The notes under the pieces are model-generated. The model ran no database searches. It was given only the letters and a program-made list of their open reading frames with translations, and had not been told where the DNA came from. DNA of 64,000 bases, taken from IMG/VR virus record IMGVR_UViG_3300044684_000361, positions 1 to 64,000 of that record; one strand, given 5' to 3'. A program made the position numbers and the translations under genes. How positions within the stretch are numbered: position 1 is the first letter of the stretch; the number at the start of each line of letters is the position of its first letter. The stretch comes from a virus. Positions 13,040-60,775 of this stretch are shown here, piece by piece.

Positions 13040-13068
13040 TTGACATGTTGTCTATGTATCTGTACATT
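13040..13068 (+). promoter_or_regulatory. Rightward promoter with overlapping operator, site 1
   Basis: A consensus -35 TTGACA (13040-13045) and -10 TACATT (13063-13068) are 17 bases apart. The right half-site CTGTACA (13060-13066) of the shared operator overlaps the -10 box; the left half at 13049-13055 is degenerate (TGTCTAT). Repressor binding here would block the rightward operon that starts with the gene at 13316. Confidence 0.7.
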
Positions 13069-13315
13069 CTCACCAACGCGGCTGAGTCGGAAAGGTTCCC
13101 CTTTAGGCCTCATGGCCTACCGGAAACCAACTTCAGTTAGCCCCTGCGAAGCGCTTTCGACCCCAATCCTAGGCACACCGAAGTCGGCTTGGAGTTACGC
13201 TCCAGCCGAACCAGAGGTGAGCTGGCTCTTGTGGGAGGACCAGTAGCAGATGGAGGGACTAGGAGTCCTCCCAGCCGCGTCCTTTGAGTGGTCATCATTT
13301 TTTAGGAGGGTCAAG
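13069..13315 (+). other. Structured untranslated leader of the rightward operon
   Basis: About 250 bases separate the promoter from the first well-supported start codon. They can form several hairpins: CGGC-TGGAG/CTCCA-GCCG (13185-13208, one bulged T) and GGGAGGAC/GTCCTCCC (13233-13240 with 13265-13272), with a nested GGACT/AGTCC (13256-13268). A 68-codon frame through it lacks a ribosome-binding site. It may act in antitermination or as a regulatory RNA leader. Confidence 0.45.
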
Positions 13316-13759
13316 ATGTCAACTGAGTCGGCGGCCGTGCAGTTGGTGGATTCCGCCTTCGCCCATGAGCAGGGGCCCGCAAAAGCCTATTCCTGCCTGT
13401 ATGAGTGCGGGGCCTTGGTCGCACAGCCGGGCTATGCCTGCGAGGCCTGCGCTGAAGCTGCGCTGCCCTTTGAGCTGCAAAAGCGCGAAGGGGATCACGT
13501 CTTTCTCAGCCGAGAACGCCTGGTCAAGGCGGGGTCTTATAAGGGGCAAGAACGTCGAATTCTTCTACGGCCCAGGAATCAGGAAGAAAAGAACGATCTC
13601 AAGAAAGCCTCCATCGCGCTCCTGGCGGCAGCCAAACATATCAACGCCAATTTTTCCTTCGCTACCTCCGCCGAGGGTCGGGATTTTTGGGAAGCCATAG
13701 TTCATATGCTCTGGGAGAAGGCTGGCGAGATGGAAGAGGCCCTGAAGAAGAAACCATAG
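13316..13759 (+). CDS. Zinc-binding protein, paralogue A
   Basis: The 147-residue protein has AGGAGGG seven bases before its ATG. Cysteines form a ribbon-like cluster (CLYECG, CEACAEAA at about 27-53). The C-terminal half (FATSAEGRDFWEAIVHMLW) resembles the C-terminus of the next protein (WVSTKQGTYYWGEVFSHLM), so the two genes look like a tandem duplication. It leads the early rightward operon. The function is unknown. Confidence 0.6.
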   Translation: MSTESAAVQLVDSAFAHEQGPAKAYSCLYECGALVAQPGYACEACAEAALPFELQKREGDHVFLSRERLVKAGSYKGQERRILLRPRNQEEKNDLKKASIALLAAAKHINANFSFATSAEGRDFWEAIVHMLWEKAGEMEEALKKKP

Positions 13760-13761
13760 CC

Positions 13762-14040
13762 ATGCCGCAGCTCTATCCTTGTGTGACCTGCGGTCAGCAG
13801 TTGAACCTCCTTGAGGGACTCAACTGCCAACGTTGTGCCGCCCAAGAAAATACCCAGCAGGCTGCGAATATACCACTGGGGGATGAGTCTTTGGCGGCGC
13901 TCCGGAAGAAGAGGGCCCTGGCTTTGGCAACTGATCTCGCCACGGCGTTTCCTTGGGTCAGTACGAAGCAAGGCACTTACTATTGGGGGGAAGTTTTTTC
14001 CCATTTGATGTCGTTGTCGCAAGGGGAGGGATGGGAATGA
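13762..14040 (+). CDS. Zinc-binding protein, paralogue B
   Basis: The 92-residue protein begins MPQLYPCVTCGQQLN and has a second CQRC pair at about 26-29, forming a four-cysteine ribbon. Its C-terminal segment (STKQGTYYWGEVFSHLM) parallels that of paralogue A upstream. It overlaps the next gene by 4 bases. The role is unknown. Confidence 0.6.
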   Translation: MPQLYPCVTCGQQLNLLEGLNCQRCAAQENTQQAANIPLGDESLAALRKKRALALATDLATAFPWVSTKQGTYYWGEVFSHLMSLSQGEGWE

Positions 14041-14546
14041 CCGCTGCAGAAGAGGCCCTGAGAAAAGGGGTGTTGGACAAACTTGAGATCTTACGTCACG
14101 CCATGGAACGCCAAGGCTATCTGCACCCCATGGCGATCGTAGAGAACTGCGATGGTCAAACAGCTCTAATGGTATTCCCCGATGGGCCACCCCGGACGGA
14201 AGCACTCATTGCCTTGTGCCGGAGCCATCAATGCTCCCGCCTTTATGTGGCCGGAGAGATGTGGAAAGTGCGTCGTGCTGGCCTCAAGGAGGCCCTCAAG
14301 GCGGTTCCCTCCAAGTGCGAGGATCGTGAGGAAATCATCGGCGTACAGGCGATCGATCGACATTCGTCCATTGTGGTATGCGCCTCCTTGACCATTGACC
14401 GCCGTGGAGATGGCTCCCCGTTTTTCCCAAGGGAGCCGGAACTTTTGTTTTCCCCGAAAGGGGCTTTTTTTGGCTCCATGCCAACGCATGAGCAGCTCTG
14501 GGGTGATGAAAAAGTCCATTCAATACCAAAAGCGAGGGTTAATTGA
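14037..14546 (+). CDS. Hypothetical protein
   Basis: The 169-residue protein has AGGGGAGGG about 7 bases before ATG 14037, which favours that start over 14031. It has a mixed alpha/beta pattern with MAIVENCDGQTALMVFPDG near residues 32-50 and a Pro/Phe-rich C-terminus. No family is recognised. It shares its last base with the first base of the next gene. Confidence 0.6.
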   Translation: MTAAEEALRKGVLDKLEILRHAMERQGYLHPMAIVENCDGQTALMVFPDGPPRTEALIALCRSHQCSRLYVAGEMWKVRRAGLKEALKAVPSKCEDREEIIGVQAIDRHSSIVVCASLTIDRRGDGSPFFPREPELLFSPKGAFFGSMPTHEQLWGDEKVHSIPKARVN

Positions 14547-14797
14547 TGAGCATAAGCAATTATATCTGCGCAGTGGAGCGCTGTGGCAACAAGCTCTCTG
14601 GTCGCGCTCGAACCAACATCTGCCCGAGGTGCCAGGCCGTGGCCCGCTACTGGCGCAATCCCGAGCGCGGGCTCGATGCCATCCTGACACGCCAGATCAA
14701 GTTGGATCTGTGGCAAGCCCGTATGATTTATCTAGGAGGTGTAGACAAGTCCTATGCAAAAGCCCGAAAAGTCATTAGTGCCTCTCGGTCCGCGTGA
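14546..14797 (+). CDS. Small zinc-ribbon protein
   Basis: The 83-residue protein has CAVERCG and CPRCQ (about 8-32), a four-cysteine ribbon. A helix containing ILTRQIKLDLWQARMIYLGG follows. It overlaps the next gene by 44 bases. It could bind DNA, but this is not shown. Confidence 0.6.
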   Translation: MSISNYICAVERCGNKLSGRARTNICPRCQAVARYWRNPERGLDAILTRQIKLDLWQARMIYLGGVDKSYAKARKVISASRSA

Positions 14798-15284
14798 AAA
14801 AGAGATTCTCGCGCATATCAAGGCTGGCAAGAACGTGAAGGAGATCGCCGAGGCCATGGGGATCATGACCAAGAGCGTGCCGGCATATGCTTCCATGCTC
14901 CGCGCAAAGGGATACTTGCCGCCTATTCCGCCGAAGGACGGAAGGCGCAGGCGTACGGAACCTCCGGTGACTCGTGAGGAGGTGGAGAAAGAGAAACTTG
15001 AAAAGGTGCGGGCGAAGGAATCCACGGGGCTTGCGATCCAGCAGGTGGAATCGCGAATGCCCGCTGAGCCGCCTCCGGCCGCTATCGCGGATGTGGAAAC
15101 CCATAATCGCCGCAGGCGGCGTGGCAGTGGCGACGGCGACTATCGCTCGTCGAAGGTATCCATCACGACGCGTGTATTGGCAGAAGAATTGGATAAGTCA
15201 ATCCAACAGTACATTGCTGAAGGGGGGCGCCTGGAAAAGTGGCACCGCTGGGCGATCGTGCTGTGCGGATCGATCCTTGAGTGA
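14754..15284 (+). CDS. LuxR-type HTH DNA-binding protein
   Basis: The protein has 176 residues. TAGGAGG lies upstream of the ATG. The N-terminus (LGPREKEILAHIKAG, KEIAEAMGIMTKSVPAYASM) is a LuxR/GerE-like helix-turn-helix. A basic, Pro-rich linker (residues 60-130) leads to a C-terminal helix with ITTRVLAEELDKSIQQYI. It likely regulates transcription within the phage programme; the target is unknown. Operator site 2 follows directly after the gene. Confidence 0.65.
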   Translation: MQKPEKSLVPLGPREKEILAHIKAGKNVKEIAEAMGIMTKSVPAYASMLRAKGYLPPIPPKDGRRRRTEPPVTREEVEKEKLEKVRAKESTGLAIQQVESRMPAEPPPAAIADVETHNRRRRRGSGDGDYRSSKVSITTRVLAEELDKSIQQYIAEGGRLEKWHRWAIVLCGSILE

Positions 15285-15290
15285 AAGCAG

Positions 15291-15320
15291 TTGAACTTAT
15301 TGTACAGCCCGCTGTACTCT
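15291..15320 (+). promoter_or_regulatory. Rightward promoter with overlapping operator, site 2
   Basis: TTGAAC (15291-15296) and TACTCT (15315-15320) are 18 bases apart. The palindrome TGTACAG-CCCG-CTGTACT (15301-15318) fills the spacer and overlaps the -10 box exactly as at sites 1 and 3. It drives the gene at 15343 and those after it. Confidence 0.65.
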
Positions 15321-15342
15321 AACATTGTAGGAAGGAGGAGAT

Positions 15343-15588
15343 ATGGCTCTCACACGAGCCCAGATCGATGTATTACGGTATGCCCTGGCTGACTCAGTCT
15401 ACGAAGCCGATGGCATCACCTTACATGCCTGGATGCCTTTCAAGGGCGCGCCGGGCCGTGCTGTTATCAAGGCGCTGAAACGAAAGGGATTCCTGGGGGA
15501 GAATGGTCGCGCCACTGAGGCCGGGCGGGGGGCGCTGCTTACCTCTCCCGAGGCCTCCTCAGAGAGGAGGTCCGATGATGCGCTTTGA
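15343..15588 (+). CDS. Small hypothetical protein, winged-helix-like
   Basis: The 81-residue protein has AAGGAGGAG before its ATG. Sequence such as AQIDVLRYALADSVYE and RAVIKALKRKGFLGENG suggests a small HTH or winged-helix fold, common in phage proteins that modify transcription. It is the first gene after operator site 2 and overlaps the ParB-like gene by 14 bases. Confidence 0.55.
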   Translation: MALTRAQIDVLRYALADSVYEADGITLHAWMPFKGAPGRAVIKALKRKGFLGENGRATEAGRGALLTSPEASSERRSDDAL

Positions 15589-16399
15589 GGTGCAAAAGGT
15601 TACTCCTGAGCAGGCTGAGAAGTGGCTGACCCGCAATGAGGGTAATCGAAAGCTACGCGAGGCGCGAGCCGCTGGGCTATCCAGAGCGATCCTGGCCGGC
15701 AAATGGAGTCTGACCCATCAGGCTATTGCCTTTTCCAAACGGGGCCGGCTTCTGGATGGGCAGCATCGCCTGCGTGCCATCGTGCTCGCCAGACAGCCCG
15801 TTGAGGTGGTGGTGGCCTATGACGTGCCTGATGAGGCCTTCGCCTATATGGATGCGGGTCTCCCCCGGCAAATGTATGAGCGTTTGCGCAAAGACAAACG
15901 GCATACCGCCATCTGCTCCACGGTCTTTCGCCTCCTACAGAGCAACCGCGTACCCCAGGAGCACGAAGCGGAGCTGCTCATGGAAACCTTTGGCCCCGCG
16001 ATGCTGAAGATGGACCAGATCACGCGTCCCACGACGGCTCGCAATGTGATCAAGGCGGCCCCCTATGAAGGGGCGATCATGCTGCGGATCAAGGAAGCGA
16101 TGATGGACAGCGATGAGGACCGGGTCCAGAAAATCAACTTCCACATGGAAAAGCTGCGCAAGGGAGAGATTTCGCTCCTGCCGCCGATCCTACAATCCTT
16201 TTACCGCCAGACCGCTGAAGGGGTGAAGAATCCTGAGATCGGCGTCTCACCCGTGACAGACAAATTTGTGCGTACATGGATCGCTTTTGATCCAGCCAAG
16301 GAGGATACTTCGCGCCTTCAGGTGAGCGACCATCGTACCGCCACACTGGAAGCGCAGGCCGTATTTCACGAAGCCACCCAGGGGATCTTTGATGACTGA
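15575..16399 (+). CDS. ParB/DGQHR-like protein
   Basis: The 274-residue protein has GAGGAGG before its ATG. DGQHRLRAIVLARQPVEVVV (about 61-80) is the ParB/DGQHR nucleotide-binding signature, preceded by an N-terminal strand and by LAGKWSLTHQAIAF. The motif occurs in ParB N-terminal domains and in phage or DNA-modification proteins of varied role. Here no parA or centromere-like array was seen, so partition is unlikely. CTP/NTP binding is likely; the function is unknown. Confidence 0.7.
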   Translation: MMRFEVQKVTPEQAEKWLTRNEGNRKLREARAAGLSRAILAGKWSLTHQAIAFSKRGRLLDGQHRLRAIVLARQPVEVVVAYDVPDEAFAYMDAGLPRQMYERLRKDKRHTAICSTVFRLLQSNRVPQEHEAELLMETFGPAMLKMDQITRPTTARNVIKAAPYEGAIMLRIKEAMMDSDEDRVQKINFHMEKLRKGEISLLPPILQSFYRQTAEGVKNPEIGVSPVTDKFVRTWIAFDPAKEDTSRLQVSDHRTATLEAQAVFHEATQGIFDD

Positions 16400-16850
16400 T
16401 TACGAAGGTATCTTCATGAAGGCAGCCGAGCAGGCCCGTGAGGGACTGGGGAAGGTGGAGCTGTTGATCCCTTTTCTCGCGATGTCGATGCTGCAGGCGG
16501 TAGCTCACTTCCAGAAAACCGGTGATCCGGTGGGGGAGCAGTTGTTAGGTGGGCTCTACCATATCCTCCAAAAGGAAGTTATACAGCCTGGGAGCCTATG
16601 CTTGGAATGTACCACTCGACGGATGAAGGGGAGGCAGAGCGCTGCGTTCGAGATCACGGTCACAGCGATCGCGATCGCGATCGGTAACTACTTCGGTCAT
16701 TCTGGCGACTGTCAGAAAGCCTTCCGGCAAATGCAGGATCGGATGGATCGAGAGGCGGTAGATCCAGCAAAAACGCGCGATGCGGCACAGCGCTTTGGAC
16801 AACAGCTGTGCGCGCTCATGAGTAGTAAGTTCGGCATGCAGCAGGGTTGA
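16392..16850 (+). CDS. Hypothetical protein
   Basis: The 152-residue protein overlaps the ParB-like gene by 8 bases. It is helical with one cysteine pair (CLECTT, about 67-72) and a hydrophobic stretch ITVTAIAIAIGNYF. The coding DNA at 16664-16683 carries CGATCGCGATCGCGATCG, a short GCGATC repeat. No family is recognised. Confidence 0.55.
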   Translation: MTDYEGIFMKAAEQAREGLGKVELLIPFLAMSMLQAVAHFQKTGDPVGEQLLGGLYHILQKEVIQPGSLCLECTTRRMKGRQSAAFEITVTAIAIAIGNYFGHSGDCQKAFRQMQDRMDREAVDPAKTRDAAQRFGQQLCALMSSKFGMQQG

Positions 16851-16857
16851 AAAAACA

Positions 16858-17412
16858 ATGGCGGATGTAACCGTTTCAGAAGGCGTAGTGGAAGAATTCG
16901 GCGAGTCGCAAAAGAGGAAGCCGAAAGTCAAGATCGGGGGGCAGTGGTATTTCCTGGGAAACACCCGCCTGGACGGGGTGGCGACCGGCGATAAGCTTTC
17001 GTTCGAATGGTCCACCTTCAAGACCGACGATATGCGCTATCCCATCAAGGTGCTGGAGGGGTGGGGGTTTGTCGCCAAGCAGGAAGCCAGATCCGCGCCG
17101 CCGCCCCCTCCTCCCAGTTATCCCCCACAGCAGGGAGGAGGGGGAAATTGGCAAGCGGGCTACCCGCAGGCGCCCCCACCACCGGGCTATCCACAGCAGC
17201 AGCCAGCATACGTCCCGGCATCCCCACCAGCGCAGCCACCCCCGACTCCTGCGTATGACAGTGATCAGCTGCGGCTGATCAGTAACTTCATGGCGGCGGT
17301 CGCGCCCAAGCTCGATAGGCCCGCCCAGGTCGGGGAGTGGTTCCGCGCCATCTCCTGCGCGGTGCGTGGACAGGAATATTTTGAGGAAAGGGTGCCTTAC
17401 TCATCACGATGA
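16858..17412 (+). CDS. Possible ssDNA-binding-like protein with Pro-rich linker
   Basis: The 184-residue protein has an N-terminal part with strands (KVKIGGQWYFLGN, GDKLSFEWSTFK) consistent with an OB-like fold. A long Pro/Gln/Gly/Tyr-rich linker (residues 75-135) and a C-terminal helical part with EWFRAISCAVRGQEYF follow. A single OB-like domain, a flexible linker and position in an early operon fit a single-strand DNA-binding or recombination accessory role, but this is inference. Confidence 0.5.
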   Translation: MADVTVSEGVVEEFGESQKRKPKVKIGGQWYFLGNTRLDGVATGDKLSFEWSTFKTDDMRYPIKVLEGWGFVAKQEARSAPPPPPPSYPPQQGGGGNWQAGYPQAPPPPGYPQQQPAYVPASPPAQPPPTPAYDSDQLRLISNFMAAVAPKLDRPAQVGEWFRAISCAVRGQEYFEERVPYSSR

Positions 17413-17756
17413 TCGTCCTTCCGGGGGAGCAAGGGGTGATCGATTTTCTCTTTGTGTGTAGCCAGAACTACCAGCGTAGCCCCACGGCCGAGCACGTGGC
17501 GCGTGCGCTTGGCTACCTGGCGGATAGCGCAGGCTCGGATCGCCCCTGTGCAGGGCGGCCACTGACGCCAGCGGCAATAGCGCGAGCCGATCGGATTGTA
17601 TGCATGGAGGAATGCCATGCGCAGGCTGTCGCAAGAATGGTTCCTGCCCGCGCTCAGGATATCGAGGTGTGGCACATCTCAGATGAGTACGAATACTGCG
17701 CGCCGGAACTGATCCGGCTCATCCAAGAGCGTCTAGGAGCAAAAGATGTGGGTTGA
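17409..17756 (+). CDS. Low-molecular-weight protein-tyrosine-phosphatase-like protein
   Basis: The 115-residue protein has FLFVCSQNYQRSPTAE (about 13-28), the phosphate-binding loop C-x5-R-S of the LMW-PTP family. Its C-terminal HISDEYEY (about 92-99) is the acid-loop variant of a compact subgroup of the family. Both catalytic Cys17 and Arg23 are present. It would dephosphorylate tyrosine or aryl phosphates; the phage target is unknown. It overlaps its neighbours on both sides. Confidence 0.78.
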   Translation: MIVLPGEQGVIDFLFVCSQNYQRSPTAEHVARALGYLADSAGSDRPCAGRPLTPAAIARADRIVCMEECHAQAVARMVPARAQDIEVWHISDEYEYCAPELIRLIQERLGAKDVG

Positions 17757-18339
17757 AAGAAGTCCGCGCCGGTTTGATTTCTGTGGCTGCCCTCCGTGTG
17801 GCCTGTGCTATGTCTGGGTGGATGAGGCCCCGCCTGATGCCGTGACCACGAAAAAACCGACCTTCGAGGAGCAGATGATCGCGCTCTATGGCGCGGACAA
17901 GCCCCGCCCTGCCACTCCCGAGGAGTATGAATTGGCTCATGCGTATCGAGCCAAGGCGCGCAAGGAGTTCGATGACAAGATCGATGCCATGATGCGCAAG
18001 CAGGATGAGGAACAAGGGTGGCAACGCTTCCTCGCCCAGAAGCCAAGGAAGGTTACGGTGTACAAACCTCTGAATGCGGTCACGTTGGATTCCATCGGAG
18101 GCGAGGAGTTGGAGCGACGGATCGCAGCCGAGCAGGGAAAGAAGCAAGAACAGAAAGTTGAGCAGCAGCAAGCATCCAGGCCTTTTCCTGCCCAGCAGAC
18201 TATGCAGAGACAAATGCAGAGCGTCGCGATCGGAGTCTTGGGTGGCGGGGCTTCCCCTGCCTGTGGAACGACGCGCTATGACTATCAGAGCGACAGGATG
18301 CAGGTGTGGGATGGATACCGGTGGGTCCCGCAGTACTGA
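17746..18339 (+). CDS. Hypothetical protein with Cys-rich N-terminus
   Basis: The 197-residue protein has DFCGCPPCGLCYVW near residues 11-24. A helical middle, a Gln-rich linker and a C-terminal YDYQSDRMQVWDGYRWVPQY follow, resembling a small WW-like or SPOR-like peptide. The short motifs suggest an adaptor. It lies between the phosphatase and operator site 3. Confidence 0.5.
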   Translation: MWVERSPRRFDFCGCPPCGLCYVWVDEAPPDAVTTKKPTFEEQMIALYGADKPRPATPEEYELAHAYRAKARKEFDDKIDAMMRKQDEEQGWQRFLAQKPRKVTVYKPLNAVTLDSIGGEELERRIAAEQGKKQEQKVEQQQASRPFPAQQTMQRQMQSVAIGVLGGGASPACGTTRYDYQSDRMQVWDGYRWVPQY

Positions 18340-18345
18340 AATAAG

Positions 18346-18373
18346 TTGATTCGTGTACAGATACCTGTACACT
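18346..18373 (+). promoter_or_regulatory. Rightward promoter with perfect operator palindrome, site 3
   Basis: TTGATT (18346-18351) and TACACT (18368-18373) lie 16 bases apart. A perfect palindrome GTGTACAG-ATAC-CTGTACAC (18353-18372) fills the spacer and covers the -10 box. It is the best match among four such sites. It controls the AAA+ ATPase gene that starts at 18416. Confidence 0.78.
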
Positions 18374-18415
18374 TTGCGCGCGCGGATTGTTATTTCTTTA
18401 TAGGAGGAAATGCAC

Positions 18416-19876
18416 TTGTCAGAAACACTACAGAACGTCGGCCGCAAGCTGGTGGCGGACGTGGAGCGTACTGGCGATAAGATCATCATCCCAAGCGGGG
18501 TGACAATCGATCAGGTCATCGACCTGCTCAATCGCCGCAAGAAGTTCGAGGAAGAAGAGACCGTCATCCGCCGCACTTTTCCGGTGTTCCCGCTGGATGG
18601 TGCCGTGGCGCTCGATCGCGCGCTGAACTCTCTTTACGGCTGGGCCCCGGCGATCGCAACGCCCGGCTTCTTCACCAGTAACCCACCGCAGCTCATTCAG
18701 GTGAACGTGGGTCCCAATGAGGTGAAGTCTGTCCCCTGGGGACGCTTCAAGCTGCCCAATGTCGAGGGCCACGTGGATACCTCGATCGATCGCGGCGACA
18801 GCGGCTGCCTCGTATTTCAGGTCGTGGCGACCGTGAAGCGCAAGAATGAGCCCGAGATCAACAAGCTCTTCGAGGTGATCGGCCAGGAGATCAAGGCGCA
18901 CAGCATCTACCGGGGGAAGGCGATCAAGATCCGCTTCCGCGACGATGAGGGTGAGCCGCTGCCCATGCCGAAGCCTGTCTTCTTGGATACTTCGTACATC
19001 AGAGAGGACCAGCTGGTGTATTCCCGCCATGTGATGGATGCGGTGAACACCAATCTCTTTACGCCGATCCGGCGTGCCGCCGACTGCATCCGCAATAAGA
19101 TCCAGTTGAAACGCGGTGTGATCCTGGGTGGTGTGTATGGCACCGGCAAGACCCTCGCGGCAGCAGTCGCGAGTAAGATCGCGGTCGAGACCGGCATCAC
19201 GTACGTCTATGCGGAACGCGCCGATGAACTCAAGGACGCCTTGGAATTTGCCAAACAGTATCAGTCGCCGGCTTCCGTGGTGTTCGTTGAGGATATCGAC
19301 CGGGACATCACTGGCGAGCGCACCCATGAGATGGATGCCGTCCTCAATACCATCGATGGGGTGGACGGCAAGCACCATAACATCATCGTGGTGCTCACCA
19401 CGAACGCCCTGGATAAGGTCCACAAGGCCATGCTTCGCCCTGGGCGCTTGGATGCGGTGATCAATATCACTCCTCCGGATGCAGAGGCCGTTGCTCGCCT
19501 CATCGTCAATTACGGTGGTGGCTTGATCCGCAAGGATGCCAACCTGACTGAGGTGGGTAAGGTTCTGGATGGCCAGATCCCTGCCGTGATCGCGGAAGTG
19601 GTGAAACGAGCCAAGCTCTCGCAGTTGGCGATCCAGCCAGAGGGCACCGAACTGAACGAGATTACCCCAACGGCCCTTCTGGAGGCGGCGCACACCATGG
19701 CGATGCAGATCGATCTGCTGCGCGGTGAGCAGCCTCGCAAGGATCACTCCTCGCTGGAGGAACGCATCATCAAGGTCATTCAGGATGGGCTGTCGGAGAC
19801 GGGCACGGTCACCGAGGAGACCCAGGGTCGTTTGCGCAAGCTCGACAAGGACATTCGCCAACGGCTGGAGATGTAA
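18416..19876 (+). CDS. CDC48/FtsH-type AAA+ ATPase
   Basis: The protein has 486 residues. AGGAGG sits 8 bases before TTG 18416 but only 2 bases before ATG 18410, which favours TTG. The AAA+ core has Walker A GVYGTGKT (about 238-246), a Walker B-like VFVEDID (about 288-295), sensor-1 TTNA (about 327) and the second region of homology RPGRLD (about 340-345). The preceding 230 residues form a substrate domain. No protease zinc motif is seen. It would unfold or remodel a protein or complex. Confidence 0.8.
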   Translation: MSETLQNVGRKLVADVERTGDKIIIPSGVTIDQVIDLLNRRKKFEEEETVIRRTFPVFPLDGAVALDRALNSLYGWAPAIATPGFFTSNPPQLIQVNVGPNEVKSVPWGRFKLPNVEGHVDTSIDRGDSGCLVFQVVATVKRKNEPEINKLFEVIGQEIKAHSIYRGKAIKIRFRDDEGEPLPMPKPVFLDTSYIREDQLVYSRHVMDAVNTNLFTPIRRAADCIRNKIQLKRGVILGGVYGTGKTLAAAVASKIAVETGITYVYAERADELKDALEFAKQYQSPASVVFVEDIDRDITGERTHEMDAVLNTIDGVDGKHHNIIVVLTTNALDKVHKAMLRPGRLDAVINITPPDAEAVARLIVNYGGGLIRKDANLTEVGKVLDGQIPAVIAEVVKRAKLSQLAIQPEGTELNEITPTALLEAAHTMAMQIDLLRGEQPRKDHSSLEERIIKVIQDGLSETGTVTEETQGRLRKLDKDIRQRLEM

Positions 19877-19920
19877 AGACACTCCTGGGGATTAGCTTTA
19901 TTCGAGTGTCGCACTGGACC

Positions 19921-19946
19921 GCCCGGAGGAGGCCCCAGCTCCGGGC
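19921..19946 (+). terminator. GC-rich hairpin after the AAA+ gene
   Basis: GCCCGGAG (19921-19928) pairs with CTCCGGGC (19939-19946) around a 10-base loop. There is no T-run, so it could be an attenuator or processing site as well as a terminator. Confidence 0.4.
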
Positions 19947-19971
19947 CGTTCCAAGAGAGAGGACAACAACC

Positions 19972-20151
19972 TTGTCATTGTCTGAGGAACTGGTTCATTT
20001 TCGATATCCACTCCCTGTCTGGGCAGCCATGCGGGATCGGGAGATGACTGCCGCCTTGATCAAGGCCGAAGAAGAACATCTGGCCTATCGGCGATTTCGT
20101 ATCGGATTGGCTCATATCTTCGCGATGCCTCAAAGATTGGAGAAACGCTGA
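19972..20151 (+). CDS. Small hypothetical protein, TTG start
   Basis: The 59-residue protein appears to start at TTG 19972, since AGAGAGG lies upstream; a GTG at 19906 would include the hairpin. It contains MTAALIKAEEEHLAYRRF. No domain is recognised. Confidence 0.5.
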   Translation: MSLSEELVHFRYPLPVWAAMRDREMTAALIKAEEEHLAYRRFRIGLAHIFAMPQRLEKR

Positions 20152-20484
20152 ATGCCTGCTTACCTTGTCACGAATCGTGAAACCGGCTCCCGCGATCTGG
20201 TGGTGGCTGATACGCCCGCACAGGCTCTTCGTTTTATCTCGGAACGGGTGTTGACCGTGTCTACCCTGAAGGGTGAGGACGTGGCTATCCTTGTTGCGGA
20301 GGGGCTTGCTCCTCAGAACGCCAGGAAGGCACAAAAGGAGATGGACTTGACGCCGCCTCCTGCTGGGCCCACGACGTACCTGCCGATGTACACGCATAAG
20401 ACGGGCTGCGCGGCCGATCCCTGGACCCCGATAGGCCAGAAAGATTGCCGCTGTATGAAGCTCGATATCCCTACGGTGATGTAA
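20152..20484 (+). CDS. Hypothetical protein
   Basis: The 110-residue protein follows its neighbour with no gap. The N-terminus (AYLVTNRETGSRDLVVADTP) has a beta-alpha-beta look seen in small phage proteins. It has a Cys pair near the C-terminus (DCRCMKL). The function is unknown. Confidence 0.6.
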   Translation: MPAYLVTNRETGSRDLVVADTPAQALRFISERVLTVSTLKGEDVAILVAEGLAPQNARKAQKEMDLTPPPAGPTTYLPMYTHKTGCAADPWTPIGQKDCRCMKLDIPTVM

Positions 20485-20532
20485 GCCCCGTCAGGGGCGC
20501 AAGAAGAATTTCTTTATAGGAGGACGCAACCG

Positions 20533-20765: not shown

Positions 20766-20804
20766 ACTTCAACTTCTGCAGACCGCATGATTCGGGAGAC
20801 GTTG

Positions 20805-21098: not shown

Positions 21099-21113
21099 CG
21101 AGGAGACAGTCCA

Positions 21114-21503: not shown

Positions 21504-21515
21504 CGCAGGAGGCGA

Positions 21516-21533: not shown

Positions 21534-21542
21534 ATAGCTCCC

Positions 21543-22180: not shown

Positions 22181-22190
22181 ACTCTATCCC

Positions 22191-36563: not shown

Positions 36564-36564
36564 A

Positions 36565-53730: not shown

Positions 53731-54130
53731 GCGGGTAGGGCTCCACTTCTGGCTTATAGCCGTTATGCAAACGAAGGTTTTCTTTGGCTCCTACACGCAC
53801 CCTGACCTTAAAAAGGTGCTGCCGGCTTTCCATGCAGTACCCATATTCAACTTGGGGCCATGTCCGGATATAGATATCTTGTGGCAGCTGATCGATGGTG
53901 GATCGCATAGCCGCAAGACAAGCCGACAGGCTTTCTCCGATCCATCCCAGAGTTATGAAATCAATACGGTGAGACTGCCAATCGTCCGGCAAGAAGCCGC
54001 CTTTGCCAGGCATAACCTCTTGTATCACTGCATAGGCAGTAGTAAATCCATCAACACAACGATGAGTCCGATGCATGTATTCCCTCAGCAGCGCCTGAGC
54101 GCGGAACACTGCAAAGCCATTAATAGGCAT
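53723..54130 (-). CDS. Hypothetical protein between portal and terminase
   Basis: The 135-residue protein starts at 54130, overlapping the terminase gene by 11 bases and the portal gene by 8. It is mixed alpha/beta with one Cys near the C-terminal half (VEYGYCMESRQHLFKVRVRV). No family is recognised. Confidence 0.58.
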   Translation of the reverse strand: MPINGFAVFRAQALLREYMHRTHRCVDGFTTAYAVIQEVMPGKGGFLPDDWQSHRIDFITLGWIGESLSACLAAMRSTIDQLPQDIYIRTWPQVEYGYCMESRQHLFKVRVRVGAKENLRLHNGYKPEVEPYPRA

Positions 54131-55757
54131 AGGGATTCGCCGTGGCTGGAGTGGATCTGCGACCCGCATACTTCTCTTGATAGACCGGCATGCGCAGCCA
54201 GTTACGAAAGAGCCACAGGAGCGCCTGAGTGGCAGAGTCCATCAGGTCATCATGGGGAATGGAGTATTCCCCGGCATAGGCGCACATCTGGCCGATCAAG
54301 GGCTCGGCCCAGGCGGAGAAGGTGTTGGCACTACGAGCCTGATCAGCCATGCCCTGGGGAGCACCGCAGGAGGGACAGGTTTCCTCATCTTTGCGGCCGA
54401 TCTGCCATTGCTGGTGACAGCTGCCGCAGGTGCGGATCGCAGTAAGCGGAGCCCAGACGATCTGCTGCACGAACATGGGCGCCACGAGGTTCAACCGCAT
54501 CAACTTGTCAGCCTTACCGGGGTTGTAAGGCATGACAGGAACCCCTTCCCGGCGTAATTGCTGGCGCAGGGAGATCCCGGAATTCTTGTCTTCGATCAGG
54601 ATCAGGTCTGCTTTGCGACCCTGGTTGAACATCCGCTTCGGACCAAAGAGCGGGGTGATCTTGGGCACCAAGGCATCAAGCCCATAACGTTTCTCCTTCT
54701 CCTTCTTCACCCGCGCCACGAGATCAGGGAATCCCAGACGATCCTGCCAGGCATCCAGAAGAAGGATCTGAGGGCGGCCACGCTTCAACTGCTGGATTTC
54801 CTGATAGGAGAGATCCCGCCGCCGATCAAGCGCATCCTGCTCCTCCTTCGGCAGCGGCTCCTTCCAGGCTCCCCAGACAGAGCAGGCGGTGTAGTCGGTC
54901 TTGCGTCCTTCCGGGTCCTTTTTGACATCCACCGCATCCTCGGAGAGGGCGGTATCCAAGGACATCAGCACCACTTCGAAGTCAGGGAGCGGCTCGTTAT
55001 GGGGCCAGCGCTGCCATTGGGAGCGCTTGATGACGCCCAGTTCCTCGGCATCCAGCAGCTCACCGGCCAGCTCCTGGCGGCCCAGGCGCGTGCCTTTGAG
55101 CACGTTCATCTGCTTGAGGAAGTTATCCGAGAGGTTGGCTCGGTTCTCTTCCGTGTTGCCGCCGATCTTCTTGATGGTCTTGTCGGCGAAGAAGGTCTTG
55201 ATCAACTCCTTGGGCTTTGGAGTGGATGTGATGACGCAGGTGGTGCGCTTGCCGAGGCGGTGGCCAAACTTGGCCTGCTCCCAGGCGGAAACATCATCGA
55301 TCCAGGCCGCTACCTCATCACAGGCGAGAAAATGGCACTGCGGGCCGCGTAGGCGCTCCGATTCCTCGGCGGAGAAGCCGCGCAGAACGGAGTCGTTGTA
55401 GAACTGAATGACCGAATCTGTCTTGTTGTAGTATTTGATCAGACAGGAGGGAACCTGGCGAATGATCCCCGATTCCCCTTCGAAATTGACATACCTGATG
55501 TCATTGTGGGTCGGAGCGATGATATGGCCGAAGGCCTTGGGATGCTCACATAGCTCCCAGGCGATCCATTGACTCAGGGTGAGGGACTTGCCGAAACCGC
55601 GTCCCGCATGGATGAAGACCGTGTCATATGTCAATTTGTTGAAATCTATGACCTGCTTGGGCCTCGCCATCTGCAGCCAGCGGGTTCGCCATTCCAACTT
55701 AGCGAGATCCCATAAGGAAAGGGAACCCAGAGTGGCGCGTAGCTCAGCCTCACTCAT
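54120..55757 (-). CDS. terL: Terminase large subunit
   Basis: The 545-residue protein has Walker A AGRGFGKS (51-58) and Walker B HFLACDEVAAW (about 142-152, Asp147/Glu148), the ATPase motor. A nuclease-like C-terminal domain has acidic motifs VVLMSLDTALSEDA and LILIEDKNSG. An extra CGSC and CPSC pair (about 444-465) forms a zinc-ribbon insertion not universal in TerL. It cuts and pumps DNA into the capsid through the portal. Confidence 0.9.
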   Translation of the reverse strand: MSEAELRATLGSLSLWDLAKLEWRTRWLQMARPKQVIDFNKLTYDTVFIHAGRGFGKSLTLSQWIAWELCEHPKAFGHIIAPTHNDIRYVNFEGESGIIRQVPSCLIKYYNKTDSVIQFYNDSVLRGFSAEESERLRGPQCHFLACDEVAAWIDDVSAWEQAKFGHRLGKRTTCVITSTPKPKELIKTFFADKTIKKIGGNTEENRANLSDNFLKQMNVLKGTRLGRQELAGELLDAEELGVIKRSQWQRWPHNEPLPDFEVVLMSLDTALSEDAVDVKKDPEGRKTDYTACSVWGAWKEPLPKEEQDALDRRRDLSYQEIQQLKRGRPQILLLDAWQDRLGFPDLVARVKKEKEKRYGLDALVPKITPLFGPKRMFNQGRKADLILIEDKNSGISLRQQLRREGVPVMPYNPGKADKLMRLNLVAPMFVQQIVWAPLTAIRTCGSCHQQWQIGRKDEETCPSCGAPQGMADQARSANTFSAWAEPLIGQMCAYAGEYSIPHDDLMDSATQALLWLFRNWLRMPVYQEKYAGRRSTPATANPYAY

Positions 55758-55861
55758 GGAAGTGGCATCCCATCATCACTGGCCCGATCCCAGGCCAGGA
55801 TCTCCTGCCGAAGCTCCTCCCACAGGATTTCAATGAACCGGTGAAACTCAAGGAAGTTCAT
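55754..55861 (-). CDS. Tiny protein between terminase subunits
   Basis: A 35-residue frame overlaps both terminase genes by 4 bases (ATGA on both sides). It reads MNFLEFHRFIEILWEELRQE, one amphipathic helix. Overlap on both sides is strong structural evidence, although no function is known. Confidence 0.62.
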   Translation of the reverse strand: MNFLEFHRFIEILWEELRQEILAWDRASDDGMPLP

Positions 55862-56265
55862 GTAGGAACCGTCTCCTTGAGTTTCTCCGCCAGAATCCGC
55901 TCAGTAAGCTGATCAATGAGCTTCTGTTTCTGCTCCTCGGGGAGATCCTTCTGAGTGGTCTCAACAGCGCGGATGTCACGCCAGCCGCCTCGGGCCCGAA
56001 GGACGAAGGAGGCGCACTGGAAGAACTGGGGATGTTTCTTGTCGATCGCGGCGGCGATCACTTCCGAGCCCACCGCCACCACCATCTCGGAGGTGCCCGT
56101 GTCATAGATACGTCGGTAGTAGCGCTCGAAGTCCTCAAGAGTGATCGAGAGGATGGCGCAGCATTGGGCGGGATCGAGCCCGCAAGCGGCCATTTTTCGG
56201 ATGTACTTTCTGAACTCGTCAGTCGGCTCGTGGGGCGGCCGAAGGATGACATCTTGCGAGTTCAT
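55858..56265 (-). CDS. terS: Terminase small subunit
   Basis: The 135-residue protein starts at ATG 56265. An HTH-like N-terminal part (KYIRKMAACGLDPAQCCAIL) precedes helical segments and a charged C-terminus, the plan of TerS proteins that recognise the packaging site and regulate the large subunit. Position directly upstream of terL supports it. Confidence 0.72.
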   Translation of the reverse strand: MNSQDVILRPPHEPTDEFRKYIRKMAACGLDPAQCCAILSITLEDFERYYRRIYDTGTSEMVVAVGSEVIAAAIDKKHPQFFQCASFVLRARGGWRDIRAVETTQKDLPEEQKQKLIDQLTERILAEKLKETVPT

Positions 56266-56359
56266 GCCAACGGCTCCCTGGAGCGGGAGCAAAGGGGCAT
56301 CTGATTGGAACTCGCAAGGCCCGTGAGGGCGCGATGGGGCCGGAGTCTATACTTGCCCT

Positions 56360-56701
56360 ATGTCGCCAAACAAGATGTGCCCTGACTGCGGGAAGTCGAT
56401 GAGGCCTGGGCCGCCTCGGTGTGCAGAGTGTCGGCTGTACCTGAAGTTGTTGCGAAAATCGGCGTGGAAGATCTATCGGGCGATGGGATCACCCGGAGAT
56501 TGGTACTCGTTCTTTGCCAGTTATGCTAACCAGAAGATGCCGAACCGGCCGGAGCATCTCAGAATTCGGGGGCGGGCGGGTAAGGGGCGGGTTCGGCCTG
56601 CCACTCCTCCAGGGTCTTCACAGGGGCCGTCTGAACGTAAAACCACTGACGCACCCAGTGGACCCACTCATCCGGAGTCAGATCATTCAAAGGCAGATTG
56701 A
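56360..56701 (+). CDS. Zinc-ribbon protein on the opposite strand
   Basis: The 113-residue frame is the only well-supported rightward gene among the leftward late genes. CPDCGKSMRPGPPRCAEC (about 7-24) forms a four-cysteine ribbon, followed by a helix (LKLLRKSAWKIYRAM). A TATACT word stands 6 bases before its ATG, with no clear ribosome-binding site, so it could be leaderless. The last 47 residues overlap a leftward gene and may be coincidental. Confidence 0.55.
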   Translation: MSPNKMCPDCGKSMRPGPPRCAECRLYLKLLRKSAWKIYRAMGSPGDWYSFFASYANQKMPNRPEHLRIRGRAGKGRVRPATPPGSSQGPSERKTTDAPSGPTHPESDHSKAD

Positions 56702-56822
56702 CCCAGATCATTTTGCCGGTGTCCTCATCCTGGCGCTGAACCCTGACATAGAGCCCTGCTCCGTATGTCAAACAATATCGGACGAATTCCCATACATCGT
56801 AGGTTTCAGGTCTTTGTGCCAT
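56559..56822 (-). CDS. Hypothetical protein
   Basis: The 87-residue protein starts at ATG 56822 or 56843. Trp/Tyr-rich segments (DEWVHWVRQWFYVQTAPV) suggest a compact domain. No family is recognised. It faces the opposite-strand zinc-ribbon gene and overlaps its 3' end. Confidence 0.55.
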   Translation of the reverse strand: MAQRPETYDVWEFVRYCLTYGAGLYVRVQRQDEDTGKMIWVNLPLNDLTPDEWVHWVRQWFYVQTAPVKTLEEWQAEPAPYPPAPEF

Positions 56823-57006
56823 GGGGTTCTCGCAGATGGGCATAGCACTGCATGACGCAGTTACAGATCGCTTGCTCGGGGCGCCAATCGCTCTTGCTGT
56901 AGAGGTGATTCACGATCGTGATCTCTTCCCCGGCTTTTTCATCTACGCTCGAAACTTCGACGAAATACCCTTCCGGGTAAGTCGTCATCGTCACCTTGAT
57001 CATCAT
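56806..57006 (-). CDS. Hypothetical protein
   Basis: The 66-residue protein has EGYFVEVSSVDEKAGEEITI then Cys-containing ICNCVMQCYAHL near the C-terminus. It shares one base with the glycoside-hydrolase-like gene. No family is recognised. Confidence 0.55.
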   Translation of the reverse strand: MMIKVTMTTYPEGYFVEVSSVDEKAGEEITIVNHLYSKSDWRPEQAICNCVMQCYAHLREPHGTKT

Positions 57007-58682
57007 CAGCCCCGCAGGAGAATGATCCCGTCTCCGTCTCCCAGTGTAACACCGGCAAAGAGAGCCCCTGAGTTGATAGTCGGTTGCTGGCTACCGGTGA
57101 GGAAATGCCACACCCCGGGGAGCATGGAGGTAGTCACAGTCTGGGAGCCATTGCCCCTCGGATTCACGATCGCAACCCCGCCCGTGAACTGGCGTGACCA
57201 GATCCCGAACGTTCCCCCTGCCCAGGTAGCCGTGCTGGGGCGTGTGGTCAGGGGAAAGCCGAGGTAGCCCCTCGGGACATTCACTTGGGTGAGAGAGTCA
57301 TCCCCGTACTCGTCATACCACCTGAGTGTCGCATAGTCGTACGTGCTGATTGTTCCGGGAGCAAAGTAACCATCGTCCATGAGCGCGGTGCAGAGCCCAT
57401 AGCGCAGAGTCTGATACTCCAGGGCGCTGCCGGCCGTGACGTTGGTCGGGGTCCCGTTGACGGGGAAGGAGGAGGGGTGATTGCCATCCGTGGTCGGAAA
57501 CCGGCATCCCAGGCCTACCATCTTGGGCGGCAGGCAGAAATCCATCCCCAGGTAGTAGTTGGCGAGCGTATTGGCCCACCCTGAAGGATCGAGCTTCCCG
57601 GTGCTGAAATTACCCGTCTGGAAAAACTCCCAGGCATTTCCCCCGGCGAACATCGCGCTCTCCAGCAAGCCACCCTGGAGGTTGTCCAGGCCGGAATTGA
57701 GGAGGGCCGTCCGGCCAAACTGATAAGCGTTGGCGTACTGGCCAAAGTTGCCGAATGCATAGGTGACCGCTCCAGGCTGGTAGAGACCCACCATGATCTG
57801 GAACTGGTCGAAGGCGTTTCGATTACCGCGCGCCATGAGCGGCTGCACGGTGTCGAAGTTGGGGAATCCACCGCCTTGCTGGGCGCCAGGAGCCAGAGTG
57901 AGACCATCCAAGGAGGAATTTGGAACCGTCCCTGAGCCATCAAGGGCGGCGAAAACGTTATCGAGGAACATTCCTCCACAGGAGGGGGAGGCCATCTGCG
58001 GATTGAAGCTGAAGCGACTGTCTACCCCGGCAGAGGGTCGAACGACGTATTTGAGCGCAGCATAGTTTCCAAGAGAGCGCGCAGGGCCCTGTGCTCCTGT
58101 AGGTGAGCCGGAGGAAGTCGAACCGTAATTCGACCCACAGATGGATGCCCCCACTCCAGCGTTACCGACTCCGGTAGGCCATGCTGCCGAATAATTGACA
58201 AGATTAGTGCCTCCTCCAGCAGGAGTGATGGTGCCCGTGCCCCCGGTTGATTCATAAAGCCACCAGTTATTGTTTTGGACCAATGTGAAATACTGTTGAT
58301 ACGCCGATCCAGTGGCCACCCCGCTCATCATCATCTGGTAGTAGAAGGGCAGACAGCGGCGTGTCTTGGACTTCTGTACCGTATAGCTGGCGTTCTTCAA
58401 CAGCGCCTGTGTGAGATTCTCGCGGTCGCGATTCCCGTTGGAATCCCAACCTTCCGTACTGCCATTCAGGATGGCAATGTCGTAAGCCCCGATGGCCTGG
58501 ATTGCGTTGTAGGCAGCGGTCCCATTGGCAGCCGTGGTCCAGGCCGGGAATCCAGTCCCAGCGCTTGATCCGTAGCTTTGGTCTCCACCAACGAACACCC
58601 CCATGACACGGGGGAAGGCGAGACCTACTGAAACGACAGTGGTGTAGGCTCTATTTTTTGGCCCGAACCATCTTTGAGTCAT
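57006..58682 (-). CDS. Glycoside-hydrolase-like virion protein (GHL15-like)
   Basis: The 558-residue protein starts at ATG 58682. It has a TIM-barrel-like layout with GMFLDNVFAALDGSG near residues 215-230. The C-terminal VAIVNPRGNGSQTV and GVTLGDGDGIILLRG resemble the GHL15 hypothetical glycoside-hydrolase group. A signal peptide is not evident. It could help the particle cross a polysaccharide layer. The fold call is from memory of motif patterns. Confidence 0.5.
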   Translation of the reverse strand: MTQRWFGPKNRAYTTVVSVGLAFPRVMGVFVGGDQSYGSSAGTGFPAWTTAANGTAAYNAIQAIGAYDIAILNGSTEGWDSNGNRDRENLTQALLKNASYTVQKSKTRRCLPFYYQMMMSGVATGSAYQQYFTLVQNNNWWLYESTGGTGTITPAGGGTNLVNYSAAWPTGVGNAGVGASICGSNYGSTSSGSPTGAQGPARSLGNYAALKYVVRPSAGVDSRFSFNPQMASPSCGGMFLDNVFAALDGSGTVPNSSLDGLTLAPGAQQGGGFPNFDTVQPLMARGNRNAFDQFQIMVGLYQPGAVTYAFGNFGQYANAYQFGRTALLNSGLDNLQGGLLESAMFAGGNAWEFFQTGNFSTGKLDPSGWANTLANYYLGMDFCLPPKMVGLGCRFPTTDGNHPSSFPVNGTPTNVTAGSALEYQTLRYGLCTALMDDGYFAPGTISTYDYATLRWYDEYGDDSLTQVNVPRGYLGFPLTTRPSTATWAGGTFGIWSRQFTGGVAIVNPRGNGSQTVTTSMLPGVWHFLTGSQQPTINSGALFAGVTLGDGDGIILLRG

Positions 58683-58983
58683 GCGAGGCACTCCGACTTT
58701 GGTCTGCCTCAAGAGTCTGGATCTTCTTGCGCGCTCCTTCCAGTTGTTCGAGCAGTTGAGCCTTCTCCTCATCGAGGCCCCGGAGCCGCAAGGCCTGGCG
58801 ACGGATCAAGGCAATGGCGTCGCGGATCTCATCTGCGAGCCATGCCTCGATTTTGTCGCTGTCCTTCACCCGTCGCGGGTGAGTCTTCACCATATCCCCC
58901 ACGAGGCGCCTCTCCAGGCGCTCTGTGATGAGGTTGTAGTCAGCATCCGAGCCCTTTGCAGAGCCAGGAGGGGAGCCAACCAT
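58651..58983 (-). CDS. Coiled-coil protein
   Basis: The 110-residue protein has a helical C-terminal half (LRGLDEEKAQLLEQLEGARK), typical of a coiled coil. It overlaps the glycoside-hydrolase-like gene by 32 bases. The role is unknown. Confidence 0.55.
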   Translation of the reverse strand: MVGSPPGSAKGSDADYNLITERLERRLVGDMVKTHPRRVKDSDKIEAWLADEIRDAIALIRRQALRLRGLDEEKAQLLEQLEGARKKIQTLEADQSRSASHDSKMVRAKK

Positions 58984-59001
58984 GCCGGCAGAGCCAGCCG
59001 A

Positions 59002-59406
59002 TCAGGCCACTACAACCGTTGGAGGGTTCGGCTGAACGCTGGCGGTGAATGAGAACTCCGCGCCCCAGGCGGTAGCCCCAAGAGCGGTGACCGCCTGGGC
59101 GGCTGCCTCGTAATTACCCGCCGTGGTGACGCCGAGCGCCGCCAGGGTCACCGCGAGCGGATTCGCCGTGGCCGGGATCGTGGTCATGAAGGGATAGGTC
59201 CCGGCCGTGCCCGTTGAGGGGCGAACGCCCACATTGTAGGAAATGGCGGGAGCAGCCCCTGGAGGACTGTTGGTCGCGGGGACTACGGTGACGGAGGCCG
59301 ATGCAACATTGACGGTAGGTGAACTCACGAGAATGATTCCTGAGTGAGGCGTTGAAAAGTCAGGGCCCACGGCAAACACGGGCCCCGTATGTGCGAATGG
59401 GGTCAA
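59002..59406 (-). CDS. Ig-like or fibronectin-like virion protein
   Basis: The 134-residue protein is Pro/Thr/Val/Ala-rich with beta-strand alternation (GNYEAAAQAVTALGATAWGAEFSF near the end, shown in two parts). This fits a single Ig-like domain often carried on phage surfaces. The 4-base overlap with its neighbour places it in the same operon. Confidence 0.5.
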   Translation of the reverse strand: MTPFAHTGPVFAVGPDFSTPHSGIILVSSPTVNVASASVTVVPATNSPPGAAPAISYNVGVRPSTGTAGTYPFMTTIPATANPLAVTLAALGVTTAGNYEAAAQAVTALGATAWGAEFSFTASVQPNPPTVVVA

Positions 59407-59657
59407 GAGACAGACTTCGCAGAAGGAGGGCGTAGATTGACTTCTTCTTCCTGAACATGCTTCAAAGCATCCTTCACGCAGAATTCAAAGAATTCTGCAT
59501 CATGGATGTTGGTCAACATGGATGCGTCCGGCTGTTCAGGCACACCAGGCAGGAGCAGGATGTATGGATAGCCTTTTCCGAAGATATCCTCTACGAGTTT
59601 CTGGATCTGCGGAGCCATGATATCGGTGGCCCGAGCCAGGGATTTTTCATCCAGCAC
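59403..59657 (-). CDS. Hypothetical protein
   Basis: The 84-residue protein has ATDIMAPQIQKLVEDIFGKG and a second helical half ending near EEEVNLRPPSAKSV. It overlaps the next gene by 11 bases. No family is recognised. Confidence 0.58.
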   Translation of the reverse strand: MLDEKSLARATDIMAPQIQKLVEDIFGKGYPYILLLPGVPEQPDASMLTNIHDAEFFEFCVKDALKHVQEEEVNLRPPSAKSVS

Positions 59658-59829
59658 TTTGCTTACTCCTCGCGAATTCAGCCAGGACGCGATTGCGAAA
59701 ACGAATGGCCTCGGCCTTGCTCATCGCGGGAGGCAGCTTACCATGGCGTCGATAGTAGTCAGCGGCAAAGAGCGCCATCCTGGCCGCCTGTTTGGCGGCC
59801 TTCACTTTTCTACGAATCCCCTTACGCAT
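59647..59829 (-). CDS. Small basic protein
   Basis: The 60-residue protein starts at ATG 59829 and is strongly basic (RKGIRRKVKAAKQAARMALF, then RRHGKLPPAMSKAEAIRFRN). Its high Arg/Lys content suggests nucleic-acid binding. It overlaps its neighbours by 8 and 11 bases. Confidence 0.6.
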   Translation of the reverse strand: MRKGIRRKVKAAKQAARMALFAADYYRRHGKLPPAMSKAEAIRFRNRVLAEFARSKQSAG

Positions 59830-60136
59830 GAGCCTTGATCCTGCTCGGTGGCACGTAGAAAGGCATGGCGCTCCAGTCCCCCAGAGGCTCCTTCGGTGGC
59901 TTCTTCTTGCGCAGAAAGCACACCGGAATGTAGAGCTTGCCTGCCACCCCGCAATAAGTTCTTTCAATGGGATGAGAGATGCGATGGCACTGTGTGGGAC
60001 CTGCGGTCCGAAAGCTTTCAATATTCGTTCCGCCCTTCATCTCAAGGGGACCCATGATGGTCACTTCATCCCCATGAAACCGGGAGCCAGGATTATGCAC
60101 GATGGCGATCTCGCCCACTTCGAAGTTCTCACACAT
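59822..60136 (-). CDS. Hypothetical protein
   Basis: The 104-residue protein starts at ATG 60136. It is beta-rich (GEIAIVHNPGSRFHGDEVTI), with basic KKKPPKEPLGDW near its C-terminus. The N-terminal part resembles small phage proteins of a KOW/SH3-like shape. The function is unknown. Confidence 0.55.
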   Translation of the reverse strand: MCENFEVGEIAIVHNPGSRFHGDEVTIMGPLEMKGGTNIESFRTAGPTQCHRISHPIERTYCGVAGKLYIPVCFLRKKKPPKEPLGDWSAMPFYVPPSRIKAHA

Positions 60137-60554
60137 ATTCCAACACCTTCTGGCCAGCAACAGCTTTGTTGATATCCGCGATGAGCTTGTCCAACTCATC
60201 AGCACGCGGCTTGGGCTTCTCGTGGCCATGGTACCTTTCCGCGTACTGGCGTAAGGCACGTGCGCAGGCAGCGGCATCATTTTTCCAGTCTGGCTCAAAC
60301 CCGTGGAGCCGGACATAGATCTCATAGGCCGTAAGCCCGAATGCCGTGTAGGCGACACCATCCCACCAATGATATTGGCGAGAGCCAACCTGACGATTCA
60401 GAAAATATCCAATCCAGGCCAATGCACAAGCGGAGCAGAAAGAGTCAGTCGAAGCATCTGACTCAGGGACCGCTCCAGATTCGAAAAAAAAGTCAGCCGG
60501 ATTGCGCTCGATGTGATCAGCCGCTTCCGTGATCGCCGTATAGAGATTGGTCAT
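60129..60554 (-). CDS. Hypothetical protein
   Basis: The 141-residue protein starts at ATG 60554. It is mainly helical with a Trp/Tyr-rich middle (SRQYHWWDGVAYTAFGLTAY). The conserved-looking HGFEPDWKNDAAACARAL follows. No family is recognised. It overlaps its neighbours by 8 and 4 bases. Confidence 0.58.
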   Translation of the reverse strand: MTNLYTAITEAADHIERNPADFFFESGAVPESDASTDSFCSACALAWIGYFLNRQVGSRQYHWWDGVAYTAFGLTAYEIYVRLHGFEPDWKNDAAACARALRQYAERYHGHEKPKPRADELDKLIADINKAVAGQKVLEYV

Positions 60555-60724
60555 GATGCCTCGTCCTCCGCAAAGATGGGATGTTTGCCTAAAGTGGCCC
60601 ACTTCAGATAGTGGGCACGAGTGGAGGGATGGAGCCGCTCCCAAGAAGGGCAATCCGTCCATCCCTTGAACTTCCGATCGTTCTCAAACAGCTTCCTCGC
60701 CTTGGTCTCGATGTCCTCGGTCAT
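60551..60724 (-). CDS. Small hypothetical protein, first gene after operator site 4
   Basis: The 57-residue protein has GGGGAGG six bases before its ATG. It starts TEDIETKARKLFENDRKFKG and ends with an acidic tail. It is the first gene after the operator-like site at 60758, so it probably heads a separate leftward transcription unit. Confidence 0.62.
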   Translation of the reverse strand: MTEDIETKARKLFENDRKFKGWTDCPSWERLHPSTRAHYLKWATLGKHPIFAEDEAS

Positions 60725-60757
60725 CGCGAGCCTCCCCGTGAAGTTGTTAACCGATAA

Positions 60758-60775
60758 TGTACAGCTAACTAGACA
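60758..60775. promoter_or_regulatory. Operator-like palindrome, site 4
   Basis: TGTACAG-CTAA-CTAGACA has one mismatch to the operator consensus. On the minus strand its half-site reads CTGTACATT, the same word as at site 1, where it holds the -10 box TACATT. No good -35 was found. It lies 34 bases before the gene at 60724 and overlaps the 3' end of the Ref-like gene. Confidence 0.58.

Follow-up and report, generated by a model that had tools for sequence, protein, structure and literature searches.

The DNA analysed here, called the window, is a stretch of 64,000 nucleotides (positions 1 to 64,000) of the 81,418-base IMG/VR record IMGVR_UViG_3300044684_000361, which comes from a little-known soil-metagenome phage. 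The final 127 bases of the record are identical to window positions 7995–8121, and a sibling contig (IMGVR_UViG_3300044765_000198, mostly 94–99% identical) crosses this junction uninterrupted and lacks the 7960–8000 stretch. Because the end of the record repeats 7995–8121 and the sibling contig spans the junction, the phage genome is best read as a circle of approximately 73.3 kb (7995–81291). Window positions 1–7994 are best read as a foreign or alternative branch outside this circle. The branch has a lower GC content and encodes a sigma70-like factor (3652–4293), a DnaB-like helicase (5710–6924), and an AAA protein; a DNA-level comparison found no similar phage record for it. The rightward genes of the phage begin at approximately 66.5 kb and continue across the junction as far as 21.5 kb, the leftward genes run from 65.9 to 21.5 kb, and the recognised structural genes are within the leftward part. 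Searches for a tyrosine integrase (PF00589) and for an S24-type (LexA/CI) repressor domain (PF00717) gave no match in the phage and detected their positive controls, so that these two expected features of a temperate integrating phage with an immunity repressor were not found. The scanned proteins of the circle included no recognised DNA polymerase, and a search for the single-subunit RNA polymerase family gave no match in the phage or in its control.

Two related lineages were used for comparison: G001 (IMGVR_UViG_3300009093_000004, a 71.6-kb circle, with a locus numbered as L125) and a third lineage, L141. Part of the record is also numbered as L005, in which 3542–3954 corresponds to record positions 65542–65954. 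The phage carries two tRNA genes (window 11541–11614 and L005 3204–3277), one without an anticodon call and the other a tRNA-Gln (ttg), and accessory genes (window 8562–9793; L005 12139–12609 and 17405–17956) for N4 gp49-type, NADAR-domain, YspA-like SLOG, and RNA-ligase-like proteins. A 588-aa protein (window 57006–58772, minus strand) is 74% conserved in G001, and searches of PHROGs, Pfam, and the PDB returned nothing for it. The features that bear on the control sites are as follows, in record coordinates:

13040–13068, plus strand: predicted promoter TTGACA-17-TACATT with putative operator 13049–13066 (TGTCTATGTATCTGTACA), the right half overlapping the −10 box
14754–15284, plus strand: LuxR/GerE-type helix-turn-helix (HTH) protein, 176 aa, the best candidate regulator (Pfam GerE, 4.4e-8)
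15291–15320, plus strand: predicted promoter TTGAAC-18-TACTCT with putative operator 15301–15318 (TGTACAGCCCGCTGTACT)
15343–15588, plus strand: 81-aa winged-helix-like protein, directly downstream of the 15301 site (AlphaFold2 pLDDT 77, weak MarR matches)
18346–18373, plus strand: predicted promoter TTGATT-16-TACACT with perfect putative operator 18353–18372 (GTGTACAGATACCTGTACAC)
18410–19876, plus strand: gene for an AAA ATPase, following the perfect operator
60551–60724, minus strand: 57-aa gene downstream of the 60758 operator (G001 ortholog 68% identical, with the core at an equal distance)
60756–60775, minus strand: putative operator TGTCTAGTTAGCTGTACATT, leftward, 34 bases before gene 60551–60724, without a −35 box
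60769–61095, minus strand: gene for a Ref-like protein (RecA-dependent nuclease), shortly before the 60758 operator (Pfam RecA_dep_nuc, 4.8e-10)
65542–65706, minus strand: 54-aa Cro/CI-type HTH protein, head of the leftward arm
65703–65954, minus strand: 83-aa HTH_37/HTH_3 protein, head of the leftward arm

The first-pass annotation had proposed one operator palindrome, TGTACAG-N4-CTGTACA, at four places in the window. With up to two mismatches allowed, this consensus occurs three times in the window against 0.03 expected from dinucleotide shuffles, and none of 100 such shuffles reached three occurrences. The site at 15301–15318 has a single mismatch and that at 18353–18372 is perfect with 8-bp arms, both exactly as described, and the half-site CTGTACA is present at 13060–13066, its partner at 13049 being degenerate. 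The dyad at 60758–60775 is also present, but with two mismatches rather than one. All four places therefore exist, but the tally was too low, as the CTGTACA core occupies at least eight intergenic places in the 73.3-kb phage, before at least eight gene groups, and four of these (66810, 70077, 73015, and 76123) lie in the record outside the window.

The symmetric palindrome did not hold up as the general form. Exact dyads are a minority, and since the left half is often poor, a symmetric dimer site cannot describe the set; the constant part is CTGTACA, and the motif is directional, with this core usually followed by NT and a variable upstream half. In addition to 73015, a search matrix built from five sites retrieved two more intergenic copies, at 76123 and 70077. 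The leave-one-out ranks were 1, 3, 6, 6, 7, 7, 19, and 23 among 146,594 positions, with the other training sites counted, and the top ranks obtained when the matrix trained on this phage was applied to G001 were mostly intergenic copies. A matrix for the symmetric dyad was discarded because, unlike the directional motif, it failed to generalise to G001. In an alignment of 18 sites from the two phages, in which CTGTACA is fixed by the choice of the set, independent signal is found at −11 to −1 (roughly TGTCT-M-TGTAY) and as a T at +8. By eye, an upstream CTGTAY-like repeat is present in about ten sites, and four sites (15301, 18354, G001 33346, and L141) have a perfect or near-perfect inverted repeat. 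Several related sites that are intergenic and oriented with transcription are thus present, as in operator/stoperator systems.

The sites are conserved at orthologous places in the related phages. Comparison of orthologous genes between this phage and G001 showed that the core is kept upstream of five of the six genes that have it here and of none of the 61 others (p = 6e-7); the sixth upstream region is within a coding region. This comparison reached 130 bp upstream, and the G001 counterpart of the 13049 site (TTGACA...CTGTACAGT, L125 4947) lies beyond that distance. At the orthologous place of the 15301 site, G001 has CTGTACAG. The dyad at 18353–18372 retains 19 of 20 bases in G001, where its surroundings have diverged; the AAA ATPase encoded downstream is 80% identical there and also occurs in N4-like phages, in copies without the operator. 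The Ref-like nuclease gene is conserved in three lineages, and the gap after it reads TGTCTAGTTAGCTGTACA in this phage, CTGTACAGTAACTATTACA in G001, and TGTACAGTCGCCTGTACT in L141, where the dyad at the 60758 position is near-perfect. The three-way alignment at this position has TGTACA as its invariant hexamer, with the partner half upstream in one lineage and downstream in the other two. As related phages keep the motif at the same places, there is little doubt that the CTGTACA element is a genuine control site by which one regulator could act on many phage promoters.

The motif is missing upstream of the ATPase loci of N4-like and other phages and from Caulobacter phage RW, in which other words are enriched, and a search of viral contigs for TTGAC-N8-12-TGTAYCTGTACAYT returned two copies, only in the phage's own sibling contig. 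Exact dyads in other viral contigs revealed no known operator family: of 126 such dyads, 111 are within ORFs, and two cases with several copies encode repeated peptides. A literature search did not find a phage operator with this sequence.

Most copies of the motif overlap a sigma70-type −10 box. A −35 box with at least four of six matches to TTGACA lies 16–18 bp from the TACANT hexamer at nine of 17 sites, compared with 9% of random positions (p = 6e-6). Five of the 17 sites have the hexamer without its final T and none of these has a −35 box, while nine of the remaining 12 do. All six rightward sites of this phage that overlap a −10 box have a TTGA-type −35 box, which in two cases is the consensus TTGACA. 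The promoter geometry reported earlier is right at 13049, 15301, and 18354, and a −35 box 16–18 bp from a TAnnnT −10 box is found overall, but not at 60758, where the leftward −10 box TACATT has no recognisable −35 box. The core is also kept where it cannot serve as a −10 box, in the spacer of another promoter (66803; G001 10028) or nearby (G001 19356–19384), so the element is not simply a −10 variant; the copy at 66810, for example, reads leftward and lies within the spacer of the rightward promoter TTGACG-16-TAGGAT at 66803. Because the copies that cannot be a −10 box also lack a −35 box, the site resembles an operator that can be separated from the promoter. Repression would be its simplest mode of action, since an occupied spacer and −10 box would block RNA polymerase.

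A Cro-like repressor gene had been annotated beside the first site. The neighbours of this site are instead the LuxR/GerE-type HTH protein (14754–15284) and the 81-aa winged-helix-like protein, the latter with a 55% identical ortholog in G001; HTH_3 matches are confined to 65.6–65.9 kb. The head of the leftward arm, with its two small Cro/CI-type HTH genes, is a classical place for a lytic switch. Next to the winged-helix-like gene is a gene for a ParB-like (DGQHR) protein (window 15575–16399; phrog_5931), which is 78% identical in G001 and for which no relatives were found in genome contigs. The GerE domain of the 14754–15284 protein scores above the Pfam cut-off of 23.5 (33.1 and 39.5 bits), and the protein resembles the DNA-binding domains of DesR, LiaR, and EvgA by sequence and, weakly, by fold. 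Its G001 ortholog (L125 6395–6871) is 45–51% identical, and nine of 11 recognition helix residues are shared (KSVPAYASMLR vs KSVRAYASNLR), as expected if the protein reads the same operator in both phages. The gene lies between the 13049-type and 15301-type sites in both genomes and was found in none of the other phage loci compared, RW among them, which likewise lack the motif; no further relatives were found in viral contigs or phage records. In the AlphaFold2 model, only the N-terminal HTH and two C-terminal helices are predicted with confidence. In place of a receiver or ligand domain, the protein has a linker and, at its C-terminus, a small helical domain that may be a ribbon-helix-helix (Pfam Antitox_RHH, only 0.13).

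We tentatively propose that CTGTACA is the operator of a phage regulon on non-structural promoters, acting by repression, with the LuxR/GerE-type HTH protein as its regulator, a combined reading that we place slightly short of probable. CTGTACA would be recognised by a DNA-binding protein, usually as part of an imperfect TGTACAG-N4-CTGTACA dyad or together with a CTGTAY-like repeat upstream. The operators would cover the spacer and −10 box of the sigma70-type promoters that are found in the non-structural gene arms. Host RNA polymerase would fire these promoters, and the regulator, made from the same region and most likely the 14754–15284 protein, would then occupy the spacer and −10 box and shut them down, a Cro-like role. 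Being downstream of the 13049 site, the regulator gene is probably autoregulated. The sites, with their positions and conservation, and the HTH family of the candidate regulator are established from the sequences; that one protein reads all of the sites, which protein this is, repression rather than activation, the timing, and the autoregulation are inferred. The dispersed, promoter-embedded regulon of the first-pass annotation, including the cluster near 60 kb, is upheld by position, orientation, and cross-lineage conservation, while its symmetric palindrome, its adjacent Cro-family regulator, and its obvious promoter at 60758 are not. Counting against the proposal are the often poor left half, the absence of a visible promoter at 60758, and the existence of other lineage-specific DNA-binding proteins, namely the 81-aa winged-helix-like protein and the two Cro-type HTH proteins at 65.5–65.95 kb. 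At the sites that have no −35 box, an activator may also be at work.

That the same sites are read by a Cro/CI-type protein from the head of the leftward arm seems unlikely. Its genes have real HTH_3/HTH_37 matches in a divergent control region, the nearest operator (66810) is less than 1 kb away, and G001 has a counterpart of the 83-aa protein (50%); however, the recognition-helix region of this protein differs after a shared QAEAARRMG turn (IAQPNLWAFLEG vs LRKSNFSSLLSG) while the operator is unchanged, and no counterpart of the 54-aa gene was found in G001. An equally doubtful reading is that the motif turns on middle promoters, either as the target of an activator or as a promoter element read by a phage-modified host polymerase, with CTGTACANT as an extended −10 box. 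The directionality of the motif and its fixed −10 register at most sites fit such an element, as do the sites without a −35 box (60764 and G001 3341), often seen in activator-dependent promoters. Six promoters of this phage, however, have TTGA-type −35 boxes, including the two consensus ones, and should need no help; the register is not fixed at 66803 or G001 10028, and sigma region 2 was not found in the phage circle, its sole match being at 3775–3924 in the foreign branch.

We regard it as improbable that the sites are those of a host regulator, either exploited by the phage or repressing it. Host operators can occur in phages, but the motif tracks a single phage lineage and is found neither in RW nor in dozens of other phage loci, a weak argument given that these phages infect other hosts. 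Promoters of the kind used by the N4 virion RNA polymerase, formed as supercoil-extruded hairpins and suggested by the hairpin-capable dyad at 18353–18372 and by the ATPase and gp49-type genes in common with N4-like phages, are very improbable, as the largest ORF of the record (937 aa) is far below the approximately 3,500 aa of the N4 virion polymerase, most sites are non-palindromic, and sigma70-type −35 boxes accompany them. Chance similarity among unrelated promoters, for which the shortness of the motif and the mostly coincidental coding dyads of other viral contigs might speak, is contradicted by the shuffles, the intergenic placement, and the orthologous conservation, and can be set aside.

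The lambda Cro/CI operators are imperfect inverted repeats over promoter elements, clustered at two promoters. The sites described here similarly overlap promoter elements as imperfect inverted repeats and are probably read by a phage HTH protein, but they are spread over approximately 73 kb, and the gene adjoining the first site is outside the Cro/CI family. The candidate regulator appears to share HTH sequence and predicted fold with the LuxR/GerE/NarL family and differs from it in having a linker and C-terminal helical domain in place of a receiver or ligand domain. A similar arrangement is the operator-stoperator system of mycobacteriophages L5 and D29, with many related sites that are mostly intergenic, oriented with transcription, and conserved between related phages, one of the sites overlapping an early promoter (PMC5712189). 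The present sites share these properties, but they differ in sequence (GGTGGc/aTGTCAAG in L5/D29) and number (about 8 vs about 24), most of them lie on promoters, no integrase was found, and the regulator is a candidate only. The kind of system is already known, and the novelty lies in the sequence, in the lineage of phages that carries it, and in the family of the candidate regulator.

The analysis provides a sequence-only map of a regulatory network, with a short list of candidate regulators, for a lineage of phages in which hardly any genes are annotated. Should the LuxR-HTH protein prove to be the reader, a different family would fill the early-repressor role usually held by Cro/CI-type proteins, and a conserved AAA ATPase and Ref-like nuclease cluster would be tied to one switch. 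A bolder version, which we think rather unlikely, is that in this non-integrating lineage nearly every recognisable sigma70-type promoter is built round the operator of a single small stand-alone protein, which has a LuxR-type HTH and a second DNA-binding domain that may be a ribbon-helix-helix. Each promoter would then be tuned by paired half-sites or by CTGTAY hexamers in tandem, and one regulator would shut off early transcription as a whole. The promoter at 13040 is followed by an untranslated leader of approximately 230 bases (window 13068–13300), with a hairpin-like sequence close to its 3′ end (GGAGGGACT-AGG-AGTCCTCC); G001 has GCAGGGACT-GGG-AGTCCTGC at this place, a possible compensatory change.
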